From Thermosulfurimonas sp. F29 (lineage in GTDB: Bacteria > Desulfobacterota > Thermodesulfobacteria > Thermodesulfobacteriales > Thermodesulfobacteriaceae): a stretch of DNA of 64,000 nt. A program made the translations under genes and the position numbers. Positions 35,472 to 47,190 of this stretch are shown one piece after another. The notes beneath the pieces were generated by a model. It was not told the DNA's origin. It was given only the letters and a program-made list of their open reading frames with translations, and ran no database searches. The stretch spans positions 186,001 through 250,000 of the forward strand of contig NZ_JAIFYA010000002.1 of NCBI RefSeq assembly GCF_019688735.1, in the 5' to 3' direction. Numbering within the stretch: position 1 is the first letter of the stretch; each line of letters begins with the position of its first letter.

Positions 35472-35480
35472 TTCCGTGAG

Positions 35481-35575
35481 GGCCGGGAGAGGGGGCTGGT
35501 GCTCCCCTGGGGCTGCAAACCCCGTGGGCCCCCTTGAAAGGGGGGGGCTGGCCGGTTCGATTCCGGCCCCGGCCT
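35481..35575 (+). tRNA. selC-like tRNA with cysteine anticodon GCA and long variable arm
   Basis: 95 nt that fold as a selenocysteine-type tRNA. Acceptor: GGCCGGG with CCCGGCC. D-arm: 6-bp stem GGGGGC/GCUCCC with a 4-nt loop UGGU, as in bacterial tRNA-Sec. Anticodon arm: UGGGG/CCCCG with loop CUGCAAA, anticodon GCA. Variable region: 26 nt, stem CCCCCUU/GGGGGGG around GAAA. T-arm: GCCGG/CCGGC with loop UUCGAUU. The discriminator is U35575, a cysteine identity base. Alternatively G35480-U35575 pairs as an eighth acceptor pair, making G35576 the discriminator as in tRNA-Sec (8+5 helix). CCA is not encoded. Ordinary tRNA-Cys has neither a long variable arm nor a 6-bp D-stem. The anticodon reads UGC/UGU, not UGA. 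Confidence 0.85.
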
Positions 35576-35604
35576 GGAAACTCTTCGGTGATGGAGGCAT
35601 TACC

Positions 35605-36864
35605 ATGGATCGCGAAGAGTTATGGCAGATCCTGGGGCTGGATCTTGAAGCCCACCGGAGACTCCTTGAGGCTCTCGGCCCCCTTTACGAAGAAATCTAT
35701 CTCTCCCGGGAGAATCGGCCCCAGGGTATGGCGTATTTTGACTCCGTAGTAGTGGATATCCACGGAGCGCGGGTGGCGGAGCTCCTGCAAATTCGTGAAA
35801 GCGGCAACCCTGTGGTGGGGACCTTCTGTGTGTTCGTGCCGGAGGAAATCATCTGGGCCGCCGGAGGGGCGTGCGTGGGCCTCTGCGCCGGAGTGGAGGT
35901 GGCCCCCGAAAGGGTAGATAAGGTCCTACCCCGGAATCTGTGTCCCCTCATCAAGGCTTTCTTCGGCTTCAAGCTGGCCCGTCTCTGCCCCTACATGGAG
36001 GTCTGCCACTTTCTCGTGGGTGAAACCACCTGCGACGGCAAGAAAAAAGCCTACGAGATCTTTGACCGTTACAAGCCAATTTATGTCATGCAGGTTCCGC
36101 ACAAAAAAGACTTCGCCAGCTTGGAACTCTGGATCAAAGGAGTCCGAGATTTTGCACTCTACATAGAAGGAGTTTCTGGAAAACCCATTTCTACCGAGGA
36201 TCTCCGGGAGGCCATCGAACTTATAAATCGAAGACGCGAGGCCCTTAATCGGCTAAACCGTTTACGTTGCCACGATCCACCGCCTATTTCAGGACGGGAC
36301 GCCCTTCTCATCAATCAACTGGCTTTCTTCGACGACCCCGAAAGATTCACCGTTCGCTTAAACGAACTCTGCGACGAACTGGAGGAGAGGGTCCGGGCCG
36401 GGGAGGGAGTGTGTCCATCGGGAACCACCAGAATAGTGCTCTCCGGATGTCCCATGGCTATTCCTAACTGGAAGGTACCTTACCTCGTGGAATCCACGGG
36501 AGCCGTGATCGTAGCGGAGGAATCCTGTGTAGGCACGCGCCACACTAGAGAACTGGTGCAGGTTTCGGAAAACTCGAAAGAAGGGCTCCTCAGGGCCCTT
36601 GCCGAAAGGTACTTTCGGATTGACTGCGCCATCTTTACCCCCAATCCGGAGCGTCGCGCAAACCTCGATCGGATGGTAAGGGAATTTTCCGCTCACGGTA
36701 TCATCCATTATGCTCTGAAGTTCTGTGATCCCTACACCATCGAGGCCTATCAGATAGAAGAGGGTGCGCCGGTTCCGGTCCTGAAGATCGAAACCGATTA
36801 CAGCCAGGAGGACCGGGAACAGCTTCGCACCCGCATCGAGGCCTTTCTGGAGATATTGAGGTGA
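35605..36864 (+). CDS. 2-hydroxyacyl-CoA dehydratase-like protein; candidate double-cubane cluster protein
   Basis: 419 residues of the HgdB/BcrB/FldB family. Likely cluster cysteines sit in conserved spots: GETTCDGKKKAYE, LSGCPMAIPNW and LKFCDPYTIEAY, with more Cys in AGGACVGLCAG and RLCPYMEVC. A single subunit gene of this type paired with one activator gene, instead of the alpha/beta pair of true dehydratases, is the pattern of double-cubane cluster proteins (DCCP), which carry an [8Fe-9S] cluster and reduce small molecules such as acetylene. ATG 35605 has GGAGG 7 nt upstream; the frame is open back through the tRNA but that part is not protein. The 29 bp between tRNA and start suggest one transcript. 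Function is inferred; a true 2-hydroxyacyl-CoA dehydratase is the alternative. Confidence 0.75.
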   Translation: MDREELWQILGLDLEAHRRLLEALGPLYEEIYLSRENRPQGMAYFDSVVVDIHGARVAELLQIRESGNPVVGTFCVFVPEEIIWAAGGACVGLCAGVEVAPERVDKVLPRNLCPLIKAFFGFKLARLCPYMEVCHFLVGETTCDGKKKAYEIFDRYKPIYVMQVPHKKDFASLELWIKGVRDFALYIEGVSGKPISTEDLREAIELINRRREALNRLNRLRCHDPPPISGRDALLINQLAFFDDPERFTVRLNELCDELEERVRAGEGVCPSGTTRIVLSGCPMAIPNWKVPYLVESTGAVIVAEESCVGTRHTRELVQVSENSKEGLLRALAERYFRIDCAIFTPNPERRANLDRMVREFSAHGIIHYALKFCDPYTIEAYQIEEGAPVPVLKIETDYSQEDREQLRTRIEAFLEILR

Positions 36865-37607
36865 GGGTGGCGGGTCTGGACATAGGTTCGCGAACCGTAA
36901 AACTGGTCATAGTAGATGAGTACGGAGTTATTGAGCGACGGTGTGTTGAAACCTCGGCCCGCCTGGGGGAACAACTTCATGCCCTCCTCTCCGGTCTCTC
37001 CTTCGACCGGCTGATCGCCACCGGTTACGGCCGTAATCTGGCCGGTAAACTCTTCGGGGCCGAAACCCTTACCGAAATCAGGGCCCACGCTATGGGCGTG
37101 AGAAGCCTTTTCCCCGAGGTGAGAACCGTTCTCGACATCGGAGGACAGGATAGTAAAGCTATACTTCTGGATCCCGAGGGGCGGATAGTAAAATTCGAGA
37201 TGAATGACCGCTGTGCTGCCGGGACGGGGCGTTTCCTGGAGGTCATGGCCTTAACTCTGGGCGTAAGACTTGAAGAGCTGGCCGAACTGGCCCTTAAAGC
37301 GGATCAGGCGGCAAGTATCAGTGCCCTGTGTACGGTCTTTGCCGAAAGCGAGGTGGTGGGCCTCATCGGACGGGGGGAGAAGCCGGAGCGAATCGCCCGC
37401 GGGATCATTTGCTCCATTGTTAAGCGTTCCCTGAGCCTTCTCAATCGTGTATCTTCGGTCCCCCCTCTGGTTTTCACCGGTGGAGTGGCCCGTAACCGGG
37501 CCATGTTGAAAATTCTAGAGGAGAAATTGGGGTTTCCGATCCTGGTTCCCGAAGACCCGCAGATCACGGGTGCCCTGGGAGCGGCCCTTTACGGAATGAA
37601 AGGTTAA
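36861..37607 (+). CDS. ATP-dependent activator/reductase of the adjacent dehydratase-like protein (HgdC/DCCPR-like)
   Basis: 248 residues of the ASKHA (acetate/sugar kinase, Hsp70, actin) fold. The phosphate motifs are GLDIGSRTVKLVIVD and DIGGQDSKAI, and the adenosine motif is FTGGVARNRAM. Two cysteines that bridge a [4Fe-4S] cluster across the homodimer are in NDRCAAGTGRF and SALCTVFAESEV. The protein uses ATP to push low-potential electrons into its partner. The start GTG overlaps the partner gene stop (GTGA). Confidence 0.9.
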   Translation: MRVAGLDIGSRTVKLVIVDEYGVIERRCVETSARLGEQLHALLSGLSFDRLIATGYGRNLAGKLFGAETLTEIRAHAMGVRSLFPEVRTVLDIGGQDSKAILLDPEGRIVKFEMNDRCAAGTGRFLEVMALTLGVRLEELAELALKADQAASISALCTVFAESEVVGLIGRGEKPERIARGIICSIVKRSLSLLNRVSSVPPLVFTGGVARNRAMLKILEEKLGFPILVPEDPQITGALGAALYGMKG

Positions 37608-40492: not shown

Positions 40493-41767
40493 TTACAAAG
40501 CTCTAAGGCGCCAGACCGGAGCCGAAAGAATGCGCACCAGATTATTCACGAAATTGATAAAGCCTTTATAACCGGTATAGGGGCCGCGTCTGCGCTCCTG
40601 AGGGAAGGAGAGGGTTGGAAAACCGAGTTTTACCGCTCGCCACTGCTCCCGGGCGTTGGTGATCACGAGGTCGGGCTTAAGCGCTAAAAGCGCCTTTTCA
40701 AACTCGTCGTCTCCGGGATCGTCGGTAAGAAAACCGGAAAAAGGGGCGGCCTCCCGGTGATCTTCAGGACTCCCGAAGACCGAAGCCGCCCCTGTGACCT
40801 CAAACCCAAGTTCTCTTAGCATCCTCCCAAGGGGCCCGAGTCTTCCGGCCCCGAGCACCACGAGCACCCTTTTCCCGGAGAAGAGTTTGAGCCAGGACCT
40901 GATCTCCCGAAAGGCCCGCGCCTCTTCTTCCCGGATGACCGCCTCCACCTTTGTTGAAGATAGGCCCAGGACCTCTCCCACCTTGCGGAGGGAAGCCCCC
41001 ACGGCCGAAAGCCCGTAAAAGGAGACCTTTAGGTAAGGAAGGCCGAAGCGCTCCTTTAAGCCCAGGGCAAACTCCCGGGCCGTTGAACCGCAGAAAAGGA
41101 GATTCAGATGAGCCCGGGAAAGACGCTCTATCTCCGGAAAACTGGTATCTCCGGTAAGGACCGTGTGGACCTTAATGCCGAGTTTCTCAAGAAGTCGCTT
41201 TATTTCCCGCGCCTCTCCGGCCACATTGTACTCTCCGATAAGATTTACCGTGGGGTGTTCGGCCCTGGGTGAGGATCGAACCAGGTTAAGCAGACTCCGG
41301 TAGGCCACGGCGTGGCCCCCGGCCTGGCTCTTTCCGGAAAACCCCGGGCAGTCCACCACGACGACCCTGCGACCTGAGTATCTCTCAACCTCGCGGGCAA
41401 GGCCCGTAAGATCCTCTCCGATAAGCCCCGTCGTGCAGGTGGCATACAGGAAGGCCCCGCGGGCGGAGGGGCGGAGGGAGAAGGCCTCAAGGATGGCCCT
41501 TCTCAATTTTTCAAGGCCTCCGAAGATCACCTCCCTGGCCGAAAGCGCGGTCCCGTAAAGATCTTTGGCCTCGCCCCGGACCATAGAGCCATAGTACCCG
41601 CAGCCCACGGGGCCATGCACCAGATGCACCGCCTCCCGGATCGGCCCGAGCACATATCGAGCCCCGAAATAAACGCAGCTTCGCTGGGTCATGCCCCCGG
41701 GCTCGCTTGCAAGCCCGCAGGGCTTAATCCGAAGAGGCACACAGCCGTAAGCGCCGCAGACATCCAT
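40493..41767 (-). CDS. nifE: Nitrogenase cofactor scaffold protein NifE-like
   Basis: 424 residues of the NifD/K/E/N family. Features include the Cys positions QRSCVYFGARYVLGP, LVHGPVGCGYYG and LYATCTTGLIGEDL, and VNLIGEYNVAGE. It lacks the FeMo-co-binding His context of NifD and fits NifE, which carries the FeMo-co precursor. The normal partner NifN is not encoded next to it, so the scaffold may be a homodimer, or NifN lies elsewhere. Starts 16 bp after nifK. Confidence 0.82.
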   Translation of the reverse strand: MDVCGAYGCVPLRIKPCGLASEPGGMTQRSCVYFGARYVLGPIREAVHLVHGPVGCGYYGSMVRGEAKDLYGTALSAREVIFGGLEKLRRAILEAFSLRPSARGAFLYATCTTGLIGEDLTGLAREVERYSGRRVVVVDCPGFSGKSQAGGHAVAYRSLLNLVRSSPRAEHPTVNLIGEYNVAGEAREIKRLLEKLGIKVHTVLTGDTSFPEIERLSRAHLNLLFCGSTAREFALGLKERFGLPYLKVSFYGLSAVGASLRKVGEVLGLSSTKVEAVIREEEARAFREIRSWLKLFSGKRVLVVLGAGRLGPLGRMLRELGFEVTGAASVFGSPEDHREAAPFSGFLTDDPGDDEFEKALLALKPDLVITNAREQWRAVKLGFPTLSFPQERRRGPYTGYKGFINFVNNLVRILSAPVWRLRAL

Positions 41768-41783
41768 TTTTTAACCTCAAACC

Positions 41784-43268
41784 TTACTGGTGGGTGCGGT
41801 CATCGGGATAGTGGTGGTCAAGGAGAGTATTCACGATAAGGGAGAGGAAATACTCTCCTCCCCGGTAACCCACTATCGCCCGCCGTTGATAGCCCACCCG
41901 ATCGTAAACCGGGAAACCGAACCGCACAAGCGGCACCCTTATCTCCCGCGAGATATTCACGCAGCGGGAGTGTCCGAGAATGAGATCCGGGGGATCGTGC
42001 TTTAAAGCGTATTCCCATTCAAACTGATCGCTTCCGTTCATGAGAATCGGTTTGTGGTTGTATTCCTCGCAGACGGAGAGAACCTCCCCCTCGGCCGAGG
42101 CACTCCTGGTGCCCACCAGAATGTAGGTGGGGATCATACCGAGTTCGCAGACGAAGCGTGTGGCTGCGGCCACGAAATCCGGATCTCCGGCCAGCGCTAC
42201 CCGTTTCATCATGGTATAGTGCAGGGTATCGGCCATAGCATCAAGGAGGATGCCCCTCTCCCAACGTACGGCTTCCGGAATGGGCCGTCCCGAGACCTCA
42301 CTTATGGCTTTAAGTAGTCGGTCGGTGTTGCCCACCCCCACGGGCATGGGAAGCACAAGGGCCGGTACCTTGTGGCGACGGGAAAGCCATTTCGCCCCGG
42401 CTCCTCCGGCATCAGGCGAAAGCGCGAAGATGGCCCTGGCGTCGCCTGCCCGAACGAATTCCTCCACCCGTGTGCCTCCCGGGGGATAATAGGGGATCCT
42501 CTCGGGCATGCCCACCAGCGGGCAGTCCAGGGTGTCACTTATGTCAAAGAGGATATGATAGGAGATCCCCATGAGCTCAAAGAGGTGTTTCAGCTCCCGC
42601 AGGTCTCCGGGCATGAGGAATCCGGGGATGAAGTACAGGTCTTCGGAAGGTTGACCGGTCTTGCGCGAGAGGGCCTTGAGGAACTCGCGTGCGGCCCGGT
42701 TGTAGCCCTCCACATGTGATCCGGCAAAGCTCGGGGTGTTCACCGTCACGAACTTCGTGAGGTCGAGTATTTCCGGTCCGAATTCTTCCTCCATAAGCTC
42801 CAGGGCCTCGGCGAGAAAGCTCTGGATGTCGTCTCCTATGACTTCGCTTGAACAGGTGGTGACGATGGCAATGAGTTCCGGCCTGTAGCGGCAGACGAGG
42901 TTCCGCACCCCGCGAATGAGGTTTTTACGGCCGCCGAAGACGGCCGCGTCCTCGTGAAAGGAGGCGCTGGCGATGGATGCCGGCTCCCGGAAGATACGGG
43001 CGAAGGTGTAGCGCACATAGGTGGTGCACCCCTGGGCTCCCTGCACGAAGGGAATGGCCCGGTGCACCCCCAGTGTGGCCCACATGGCCCCGAGGGGCAT
43101 GCAGGTGCGGCTGGGATCAATGCAGACCGAACGGTTGGTCGCCGGTACCAGCTCCGGCGGTGGGGGGATGTATTCCGGCGTAAGTGGCCTCTTTTCTATG
43201 TGAAGCTCTTTGTAGGTGATGCCCTCGACCGGAATCTCTGAAACCCGATTTATTTTCTGGTTGATCAT
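41784..43268 (-). CDS. nifK: Nitrogenase molybdenum-iron protein beta chain
   Basis: 494 residues. The three P-cluster cysteines of the beta chain are intact: RTCMPLGAMWATLG, QGAQGCTTYVRY and IVTTCSSEVIGDDI. EDAAVFGGRKNL and NTPSFAGSHVEGY are standard NifK segments. Style is that of the methanogen/Firmicute/Nif groups with NifI control. No vnfG/anfG-type delta subunit gene is present, so a molybdenum enzyme is most likely. It begins 18 bp after nifD. Confidence 0.93.
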   Translation of the reverse strand: MINQKINRVSEIPVEGITYKELHIEKRPLTPEYIPPPPELVPATNRSVCIDPSRTCMPLGAMWATLGVHRAIPFVQGAQGCTTYVRYTFARIFREPASIASASFHEDAAVFGGRKNLIRGVRNLVCRYRPELIAIVTTCSSEVIGDDIQSFLAEALELMEEEFGPEILDLTKFVTVNTPSFAGSHVEGYNRAAREFLKALSRKTGQPSEDLYFIPGFLMPGDLRELKHLFELMGISYHILFDISDTLDCPLVGMPERIPYYPPGGTRVEEFVRAGDARAIFALSPDAGGAGAKWLSRRHKVPALVLPMPVGVGNTDRLLKAISEVSGRPIPEAVRWERGILLDAMADTLHYTMMKRVALAGDPDFVAAATRFVCELGMIPTYILVGTRSASAEGEVLSVCEEYNHKPILMNGSDQFEWEYALKHDPPDLILGHSRCVNISREIRVPLVRFGFPVYDRVGYQRRAIVGYRGGEYFLSLIVNTLLDHHYPDDRTHQ

Positions 43269-43286: not shown

Positions 43287-44717
43287 TTAAATTTCGGTGC
43301 GGGAAAGCCGCCACACCGGGGCGCAAACGGCCTGGTAAATATCCCGGGCAAAGTTCACGAAGCCCCGAAAACCGGCGTAGGGCCCCTTTTCGTAAGAGTG
43401 GGAGTTAAGCGTTGGCACACCGAACTTGCGCACGAGATACTTCTCCTTGAGACCGGTGAGAAAAAGATCGGGCCTGCGGGTCTCTATCATTTCTTCGATC
43501 TCGAACTCGTTGGGATTGTCTATGACGAGAAGACCGGGTTTTGCGCGTTCGTTTATCTTGGCGTAGTCCTCCCTGTGGCCGAAGGTGGTCATGACCGCCA
43601 CCACCTCCATTCCCAGTTCCTCCATGACTTTGATCCAGTGCCACACCCGCGGGGCCCCCACATAGATGGCTACCCGCTTTCCGGAAAGCCTTTCCCGATA
43701 CCAAGAAAGGGCCGCCTCCACCGCCGCGGTTTCCTCTTCAATGATCTCTTCAGCCCGCCGTTTCATCTTTTCTTCCCCGAACCAGGCAGCCACATCCCAC
43801 AGGGCCTTAGCGGTCTGCGAAAGTCCAAAAAGACTCACCCGCACAAAGGGCACCTCAAAGCCCTGCTTGATGAGCTCGGCAATATAGGTGGCTGAACGCT
43901 GGCAGTGCACGATGTTGAGCCTGGCGTCCGGAAGGCGGAAGAGGTCTGAAAGCCTTGCGTTTCCGGTAAAGACATTGAGTATCCTCAGGCCCAGCTTCTC
44001 GAAGAGGGGGACCACCACGGCTTCGTCCCAGTCAATGTTGTATTCCCCGATCAGGTTCACATCGTAGGAGGTCCTCTCCTCCTCGGGGAGTACCACTTCC
44101 GGGTGTTTCTTTCGGTACTCTATGAGCCACTTGTAGAATTGGAAATTAAACTCGTGGTGTCCTTTAGACTGGGAGACTCCGCAGAAGCCCGGGGAGGCGC
44201 AGGCAAAGACGGGTTTTCCGACTTCGGCCGAGACCTCACGGGCCACCTGCTCTATATCGTCGCCGATAAGGGCGGTGGAGCAGGTGTTGTATATGACGGC
44301 CCCTCGGGCTCCGGGATTGAGCCGAAAGGCCTCAAGAAGGGCCCTTTTTAATTTTTCCGCTCCGCCGAAGATAATGTCCTGTTCGGTCATGGCCGTGGTG
44401 TAGCAGTGGCGGCGATGGTGGGCCTCGTTCTCTAACACCCCGGGGGCGGCCCAGCCGTAAAGATCCCCCAGATGCCGGCGCGTGCCCCAGGTGTAGTAGG
44501 CACAGCCCACCGGAGCATGTACCATCTGAATCACATCCACAATCGGTCCGCCCACGACCCCGCGGGCACCGGCAAAAGCTCACCCGCGCTCGGTGAGATC
44601 GCCCGGCACCGTGGGGGCGTTGCACCTGGGTAGCACCTTCTTATCTTCATCAACGAGGTAAATGTGTTCGGTCCTTTCGGGGATGCAGGCGTTACATTTC
44701 ATCGGATAGTAACCCAT
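43287..44717 (-). CDS. nifD: Nitrogenase molybdenum-iron protein alpha chain, with in-frame UGA at a P-cluster cysteine position
   Basis: 476 codons if UGA is read through. The ATG at 44717 (GGAGG upstream) opens MGYYPMKCNACIPERTEHIY, a normal NifD start. At codon 46 (44582-44580) the frame has TGA in TERG-x-AFAGARGVVGGP; NifD proteins have Cys here, alpha-Cys62 of Azotobacter, a P-cluster ligand. The frame then continues without damage: APVGC (second ligand), YNTCSTALIGDD (third), VHCQRSATY (FeMo-co Cys) and LNSHSYEKGPYAGF (FeMo-co His). A SECIS-like hairpin follows the UGA. The intact remainder and the conserved operon argue against a dead gene. Readings are selenocysteine, cysteine at UGA, recent nonsense mutation or a sequencing error (one base from TGC). 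Confidence 0.9.
44544..44571 (-). promoter_or_regulatory. SECIS-like hairpin downstream of the nifD UGA
   Basis: In the mRNA the hairpin starts 8 nt after the UGA. The lower stem is CGGU/ACCG, with a 2-nt GG bulge on the 3' side. The upper stem is GCCCGC/GUGGGC (one G-U pair), and the apical loop is GGGGUC, beginning 18 nt after the UGA. In Escherichia coli fdhF the loop (AGGUCU) begins 17 nt after the UGA, and a G and U in the loop are needed for SelB. Spacing, loop size and the GGUC core match. High GC makes chance hairpins possible. Confidence 0.6.
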
Positions 44718-44733: not shown

Positions 44734-45567
44734 TTAGGATGAGAGGGCGGCGCAGAAGGCCGCCTGCGGAAGGTCCCCTTCGCCGGGGACCCCTGCGGCG
44801 TCGGCCCGGCAGCGTCGGCAAGAGAGGAATTGCGGCATGAAACGCGAAGCCAGCCTGCGGGCCCAGCGAAGTTCCGTCTCCGTGGGCGGTCGCCGATGGC
44901 GGAAATGCGCAAGCGGAATGAGAGGTATGATGTTCATGAGATGAGCTCCAGCCTCCCATACCCGCCGGGCGATTTCGGCCACCTCCACATCGTTTATTCC
45001 CGGAACAAGCACGGTGTTGACCTTGACCCTTAAGCCCGCTTCCGCCGCCGCGGCAATGCCTTCCAACTGCCGGGAAAGGAGAAACTCCGAGGCTTCCCTG
45101 CCGGAGAGCCTTTTTCCCCGGTAGCGCACCCAGAGGTAAACTTTTTCGGCGGTTTCCGGGGTTGCGGCGTTTACCGTGACCGTAAGAAATCGCACTCCCA
45201 GATAAACCAGATCTGCAAGTTTTTCTTTAAGGAGAAGTCCGTTGGTGGAGACGCAGAATTTAAGTTGCGGGAAGCTTTCCCGCACGCGGGATAGGGCCTC
45301 GAAAGTTTCCTCGTTGGCCAGCGGATCCCCGGGACCGGCCACACCTACGACTTCTATACGGGGCTCAAGGGTAAGTACCGTTTCCACATAGGCCGGGGCC
45401 TCTTCCGGGGAAATCACCCTGCGGGAGGCCCCGGGACGATTTTCGCTTACGCAGGCGTAGCGCCGGTCGCAGTAGGCGCACCGGACATTGCATCGCGGAG
45501 CCACCGGAAGGTGAAGCCTTCCCACGAGCCGGTGCGCCTCCTCATCAAAACAGGGATGTCTTATCAT
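44734..45567 (-). CDS. nifB: Nitrogenase cofactor biosynthesis radical SAM protein NifB
   Basis: 277 residues, the short NifB form without the C-terminal NafY-like domain. The radical SAM triad is RCNVRCAYCDR, the start HPCFDEEAH is diagnostic of NifB, and further cluster cysteines are near the C-terminus (LSCRRCRADAAG). It fuses two [4Fe-4S] clusters with a carbide to make NifB-co. Its place between nifI2 and nifD, 16 bp before nifD, is less usual than a separate locus. Confidence 0.92.
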   Translation of the reverse strand: MIRHPCFDEEAHRLVGRLHLPVAPRCNVRCAYCDRRYACVSENRPGASRRVISPEEAPAYVETVLTLEPRIEVVGVAGPGDPLANEETFEALSRVRESFPQLKFCVSTNGLLLKEKLADLVYLGVRFLTVTVNAATPETAEKVYLWVRYRGKRLSGREASEFLLSRQLEGIAAAAEAGLRVKVNTVLVPGINDVEVAEIARRVWEAGAHLMNIIPLIPLAHFRHRRPPTETELRWARRLASRFMPQFLSCRRCRADAAGVPGEGDLPQAAFCAALSS

Positions 45568-45591: not shown

Positions 45592-45969
45592 TTAAAAAAG
45601 AGCGGAAAGGCCCGTCTCACCGGTGCGCACTCTCAGGACCTCCTCCACCGGGAGCACGAAGATCTTGCCGTCTCCGTGCTCACCGGTCTGATTTACCCGG
45701 ATGATTCTCTCCACCACCCTGGGGACCATGGCCTCCGGCACCACCACCGAAAGGAGCCTTTTAGGTATAAAGGCGTAAGAGGTGGTCTCGAGCTTCTCGG
45801 CCACCTCAGGGCTTACCCGATAGGCGAGCTCCTTGAGCCTTCCTCCCTGTTTCCCCCGGCCGAGGACCTTAAAGGCCGTAAAGGAGGAAAACCCCATCTC
45901 CTCAAGGGCCCTTTTGGTAGAAAGCATTTTGTTGGGTCTCACGATGGCGATTATTTCCTTAAGGATCAT
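45592..45969 (-). CDS. nifI2: Nitrogenase PII-like regulator NifI2
   Basis: 125 residues, PII fold with the longer T-loop of NifI2 (GRGKQGGRLKELAYRVSPEV...TSYAFIPKRLLSVVV) and GEHGDGKIFVLPVEEV. Together with NifI1 it inhibits the nitrogenase MoFe protein post-translationally when 2-oxoglutarate is low. Located 10 bp after nifI1, the arrangement known from methanogens and sulfate reducers. Confidence 0.92.
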   Translation of the reverse strand: MILKEIIAIVRPNKMLSTKRALEEMGFSSFTAFKVLGRGKQGGRLKELAYRVSPEVAEKLETTSYAFIPKRLLSVVVPEAMVPRVVERIIRVNQTGEHGDGKIFVLPVEEVLRVRTGETGLSALF

Positions 45970-45979
45970 GATTCACCTC

Positions 45980-46297
45980 CTAGAGTTCGGCCTTTCCGGT
46001 GCGGATGGTGTAGGCCTCCTCCACCGGGGAGACAAATATCTTGCCGTCTCCGAAGCGCCCGGTACGGGCGGCCTCTATCACGATGCTGCAGACCCGTTTG
46101 ACCTCCTCGTCCGGCACCACCAGGAGAAGGAGGCTTTTGGGAAGCTCGTCATAAACCACCTCCCCCACGGCAAGACCCCCCTGCTTTCCGCGCCCCACCA
46201 CATCCACCCGGGTGAGCGCGAGGAATCCCTCCCGGGCCAGGGCCTCCACCACCTCTTCCGTCTTTTCCGGCCTTATTACGGCTTTGATCATTTTCAT
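45980..46297 (-). CDS. nifI1: Nitrogenase PII-like regulator NifI1
   Basis: 105 residues, PII family: MIKAVIRPEKTEEVVEALAR, GRGKQGGLAVGEVVYDELPK (T-loop) and ARTGRFGDGKIFVSPVEEAY. It follows nifH by 29 bp and works with NifI2 as a heteromer that binds the MoFe protein. The ATG has GGAGG 6 nt before it. Confidence 0.92.
   Translation of the reverse strand: MKMIKAVIRPEKTEEVVEALAREGFLALTRVDVVGRGKQGGLAVGEVVYDELPKSLLLLVVPDEEVKRVCSIVIEAARTGRFGDGKIFVSPVEEAYTIRTGKAEL

Positions 46298-46326: not shown

Positions 46327-47190
<864 letters not shown>

Follow-up and report, generated by a model that had tools for sequence, protein, structure and literature searches.

The nif locus and the in-frame UGA of nifD

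The window, a stretch of 64,000 nucleotides from Thermosulfurimonas sp. F29, contains a minus-strand operon in the order nifH, two P-II genes, nifB, nifD, nifK and nifE. The gene for the nitrogenase iron protein, nifH (46327-47160; TIGR01287, 459.9 bits, above the cut-off), is followed by two genes for nifI-like regulators of the P-II family (45980-46297 and 45592-45969), a nifB-like radical SAM gene (44734-45567; TIGR01290, 284.9 bits, below the cut-off), nifD (43287-44717), nifK (41784-43268) and a nifE-like gene (40493-41767), for which the best NCBIfam match, TIGR01283, is also below the cut-off. Several of the nif genes score below the NCBIfam curated cut-offs, which would be expected of a divergent Nif group. 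A homocitrate-synthase-like (nifV-like) gene is encoded on the plus strand.

The nifD gene encodes the α subunit of nitrogenase component 1. With TGA translated as selenocysteine (Sec) its product is 476 residues long, has Sec as residue 46 and matches TIGR01862 above the cut-off (522.9 bits). Codon 46 (44580-44582, minus strand) is the sole in-frame UGA of the gene and takes the place of the invariant Cys in the ERGCAFAG motif of NifD homologues. By homologue comparison and in the numbering of Howard et al. (2013; PMC3760896) this is the α-Cys62 position, which these authors name as a P-cluster ligand position; an in-frame UGA at α-62 is a hallmark of a Sec-containing NifD. The locus also has the features of Group III: Sec predicted at residue 46, Ala at the β-92 position of the β subunit encoded by nifK (QGAQGC), and no match above the cut-off in a search for nifN, the best match being nifK itself.

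A candidate SECIS hairpin 3′ of the UGA

The first-pass annotation had proposed that a SECIS-like hairpin follows the UGA (44544-44571, minus strand). A base-by-base check finds each of its parts in the sequence: a lower stem of CGGU (44571-44568) and ACCG (44547-44544), a bulged GG (44549-44548), an upper stem of GCCCGC (44567-44562) and GUGGGC (44555-44550), and an apical loop GGGGUC (44561-44556; GGAGUC in one gene with a TGT codon and a relic hairpin) at 18 nt from the UGA. RNAfold closes an extra G-C pair within the loop, which leaves a GGGU loop at a spacing of 19, and assigns the 28-mer an energy of -16.8 kcal/mol. The bSECIS model asks for an apical loop of 3-9 nt, an upper stem of 4-16 bp, a spacing of 16-37 nt from the UGA, a G among the first two loop bases and a minimum free energy (MFE) of -7.5 kcal/mol or lower. 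With a loop of 4-6 nt, a stem of 6-7 bp, a spacing of 18-19 nt, G as the first loop base and the energy given above, the hairpin obeys these bacterial rules, as had been claimed.

Taken by itself, the window sequence places the hairpin only slightly above chance. With the UGA as the first codon of the folded strand it is the MFE structure; once the 5′ flank is added, a competing fold is preferred, and relative to dinucleotide shuffles its z-score is only -1.0 to -1.9. Against a null set of 20,000 synonymous sequences drawn with the codon usage of nifD itself, P was 0.011 for the upper stem-loop and 0.028 for the 28-mer. Given the weak single-sequence statistics and the competing fold, the caution attached to the original proposal, that part of the hairpin may be coincidence in a GC-rich coding sequence, was justified. 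The z-score of -1.3 obtained on folding the plus strand here was set aside as meaningless, the mRNA being the minus strand.

These marginal statistics would also fit an explanation in which the UGA is a real stop codon, through a pseudogene, a sequencing error or a split gene, and the hairpin is a by-product of GC-rich coding. A GTG-started open reading frame of 422 amino acids 3′ of the UGA also fits this explanation, and in its split-gene version the locus would encode a 45-residue peptide and a 422-residue protein from the downstream GTG. Starting at that GTG would, however, cost the protein one P-cluster ligand.

Comparison of UGA-containing and Cys-encoding nifD genes

A close NifD homologue is present in 12 of 41 genomes of the class Thermodesulfobacteria. 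The UGA is found in 11 of the 12, and all 11 have the same 21-nt core. A wider scan covered 84,980 species genomes with two search patterns, one of which required Cys; the matches listed include Thermosulfurimonas dismutans, Thermodesulfatator atlanticus, Desulfovirgula, Desulfofundulus thermosubterraneus, Carboxydothermus islandicus, Desulforadius tongensis and one further Bacillota genome. At least six Bacillota genomes have the UGA at the same codon, and the number of distinct UGA genomes is at least 17, a count in which loci apparently from the same record are merged. Among the matches listed, 15 of the 17 distinct UGA genomes have an identical core (GCCCGCGGGGTCGTGGGCGGA); they include four Bacillota in which it is retained despite NifD proteins that are only ~63-65% identical.

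The conservation of this segment exceeds what coding demands. In codons 51-57, residues shared between the UGA genes of Thermodesulfobacteria and Bacillota use the same codon in 100% of cases, compared with 41.5% elsewhere in the gene. Across 25 Cys genes from the same clade, codon identity over the nine codons 50-58 is 0.29, which places this stretch 467th of 468. Judged by codon identity, the synonymous sites are thus frozen in the UGA genes only. Folding of the 18-nt core gave a median MFE of -12.2 kcal/mol for 14 UGA genes and -2.6 kcal/mol for the 25 Cys genes (Mann-Whitney p of 3e-6, a value that overstates independence as the rows are related). Comparison with Cys-encoding homologues had been suggested as a check on the hairpin, and its outcome, a weaker hairpin and relaxed synonymous sites in the Cys genes, favours a SECIS. 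Where the single sequence is weak, the comparison across phyla makes the case decisive. It also renders a genuine stop codon highly improbable: the same UGA stands in at least 17 independent genomes of two phyla, in reading frames that are otherwise intact, and the freezing of synonymous sites is confined to UGA genes.

The correspondence between UGA and hairpin has exceptions on both sides. The nifD gene of Desulfovirgula thermocuniculi (L048, around 4377) has the UGA but encodes RDVVGG in place of RGVVGG and matches the shared hairpin poorly; it may have an alternative SECIS or be a decaying gene. In the UGA gene of Desulforadius tongensis the hairpin is shifted. Some Cys genes (L054, L045 and L058) retain a fair or good hairpin and, since L045 and L058 lie outside the Sec groups, the hairpin alone is not diagnostic.

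Extent of the element

Identity among the UGA genomes and synonymous constraint delimit a conserved putative SECIS core of 21 nt, GCCCGCGGGGUCGUGGGCGGA (44547-44567, minus strand), which comprises the upper stem, the loop and the bulged GG. The lower stem of the original proposal exists in the window, but its outer pairs (44568-44547 and 44571-44544) are not kept in other UGA genes, as the variable third bases of codons 50 and 58 show. The amino acids dictate the two inner G-C pairs of this stem, which are therefore uninformative. The element supported by the comparison is the upper stem and loop with the adjoining GGA. Within this element the near-invariance of the UGA genes leaves too little variation for covariation evidence.

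Nearly all UGA genes have GGG as codon 45, directly 5′ of the UGA (44583-44585, minus strand). The identity of this codon is 0.88 between phyla in UGA genes versus 0.31 among Cys genes, a constancy that may be a UGA context effect.

Selenocysteine machinery and a selC*-like tRNA

The genome encodes selA, selB, selD and a tRNA-Sec(UCA), the complement expected alongside a Sec-containing NifD. The selD gene (L124, G000:C3:42811-43743) itself contains an in-frame TGA, with a strong predicted hairpin (-26.0 kcal/mol) after it, and is probably a second selenoprotein gene in this genome.

A further tRNA gene in the window (35479-35576, plus strand; Rfam RF01852, 58.5 bits) is tRNA-Sec-like with a long variable arm but has a GCA (Cys) anticodon, and fits the published selC* tRNA-Cys class. 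Directly 3′ of it (35605-37607, plus strand) are genes for a double-cubane-cluster reductase (NF040772, 453.6 bits) and its ATPase activator (TIGR00241). TRNAs of the selC* class occur in Thermodesulfobacteria, some with a UCA anticodon (PMC7609411), and the presence of a tRNA with Cys features in the same window as nifD raises the question of whether a suppressor of this type decodes the UGA as Cys. An opal suppressor would have a UCA anticodon, however, and the GCA found here does not read UGA; the same holds for two related copies that were typed with ARAGORN, the second tRNA copies of genomes G025 and G005 (G022 holds another copy). The idea that the selC*-like tRNA inserts Cys at the UGA was rejected on the basis of this anticodon and, with a normal tRNA-Sec(UCA) and all of the sel genes present, there is very little probability that the UGA is read as Cys.

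Taken together, the contrast between UGA and Cys genes, the frozen synonymous sites, the relic hairpins described below and the Sec machinery support the SECIS reading. From this comparative evidence, the nifD hairpin is very probably a bacterial SECIS within the coding sequence that directs insertion of Sec at the UGA in place of α-Cys62. In the proposed mechanism the stem-loop 18-19 nt 3′ of the UGA in the mRNA would be bound by SelB carrying Sec-tRNA-Sec(UCA), and decoding of the UGA as selenocysteine would yield a NifD with Sec as the P-cluster ligand at α-62.

Exchange of Sec and Cys during NifD evolution

The best NifD tree has eight Sec/Cys changes, at least five of which are forced by well supported branches. 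Several Cys genes nested beside Sec genes have a TGT codon and a near-intact hairpin bearing one lesion, located in the loop in Desulforudis sp. J_13 (L054, the tree position of which is unsure owing to a long branch) and in the stem in Moorella stamsii (L059) and in Thermodesulfobacteriales (L077/L132). The lesion is a G>A change in the L054 loop and likewise in the stem of L059 and L077. Cys genes with a good hairpin look for the most part like recent Sec-to-Cys losses in which the hairpin is a SECIS relic. In genome G065, the Cys-containing NifD of which is 85% identical to the window protein, the hairpin is wholly gone.

Among residues that might track the exchange, the strongest raw contrasts between Sec and Cys proteins are at NifD 375 and NifK 53. 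An independent-pair test of low power, with results listed for a subset of columns to which NifK 53 does not belong, gave no significant column in that subset, the pairs that differ being too few for 0.05 to be attainable, and no NifD or NifK residue could be shown to track Sec. Repeated switching without a residue shown to track it suggests that NifD tolerates either ligand.

This apparent tolerance bears on what the Sec codon is for. Even if Sec insertion is real, the main reason for keeping the UGA and SECIS could be a selenium-dependent gating of NifD synthesis and not the chemistry of the P-cluster, an idea raised for NifD by Howard et al. (PMC3760896). The position of the UGA early in nifD, the repeated switching among closely related enzymes and the outcome of the low-power residue test are all in line with a gate, while retention of the UGA in 11 of the 12 genomes of the class is equally compatible with a chemical benefit of Sec. 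We regard the gate as an unlikely main role. The same goes for its broader form, in which the SECIS would be an old frozen module in Thermodesulfobacteria and Bacillota that serves chiefly to gate synthesis by selenium as the ligand flips between Sec and Cys; on the sequences compared here it appears doubtful.

The nifD gene of the window and its G065 counterpart form a natural Sec/Cys pair suited to probing what selenium does in the P-cluster. Gene callers that treat UGA as a stop would truncate such nifD genes, so that nifD surveys can miss them.

Comparison with known systems

The SECIS of Escherichia coli fdhF is a short stem-loop directly 3′ of the UGA with GGUC in its loop. The nifD element resembles it in the GGUC of the loop, in being a short stem-loop and in a spacing of 17-18 nt, but differs in stem sequence, and a bulged U was not seen in the nifD upper stem.

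The Cys-containing NifD proteins of the same clade (for example those of G065, Moorella and Desulforudis sp. J_13) share the protein clade and β-Ala92 with the window protein, and some have near-identical hairpins. They differ in having TGC or TGT at codon 46 and a hairpin that is absent or, in several, lesioned.

The closest known system is the Sec-NifD of Howard et al. (2013; PMC3760896), who described Sec at α-62 in three species with a predicted bSECIS and sel genes; for these known members no selenium in purified protein is reported in that paper. A 2026 review lists the nitrogenase α subunit among selenoprotein families, as annotated in GenBank (PMC13188914). The UGA at α-62 (residue 46 of Group III NifD), the bSECIS, the sel genes, β-Ala92 and the absence of nifN are common to these proteins and to the present one, whereas the organism is another. 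The paper names the codon as TAG, a statement that can be amended, since here it is TGA. Howard et al. further proposed that Sec62 and β-Ala92 covary, with Ala92 occurring only together with Sec62. Among the matches listed (L009-L079), however, QGAQGC is found in the NifK of 25 Cys62 genes as well as of 14 Sec genes. On these alignments β-Ala92 marks the clade in which Sec occurs and does not covary with Sec62, which amends a second statement of 2013 and removes β-Ala92 as a Sec-specific partner. Sec-NifD and its predicted bSECIS have been known since 2013, and this genome is a further example. The present comparison adds more than a dozen further genomes and evidence of Sec-to-Cys loss, leaves the lower stem out of the model and narrows the RNA signal down to the 21-nt core; a dataset far larger than the three genomes of 2013 now supports the existence of nitrogenases that encode Sec as a P-cluster ligand.
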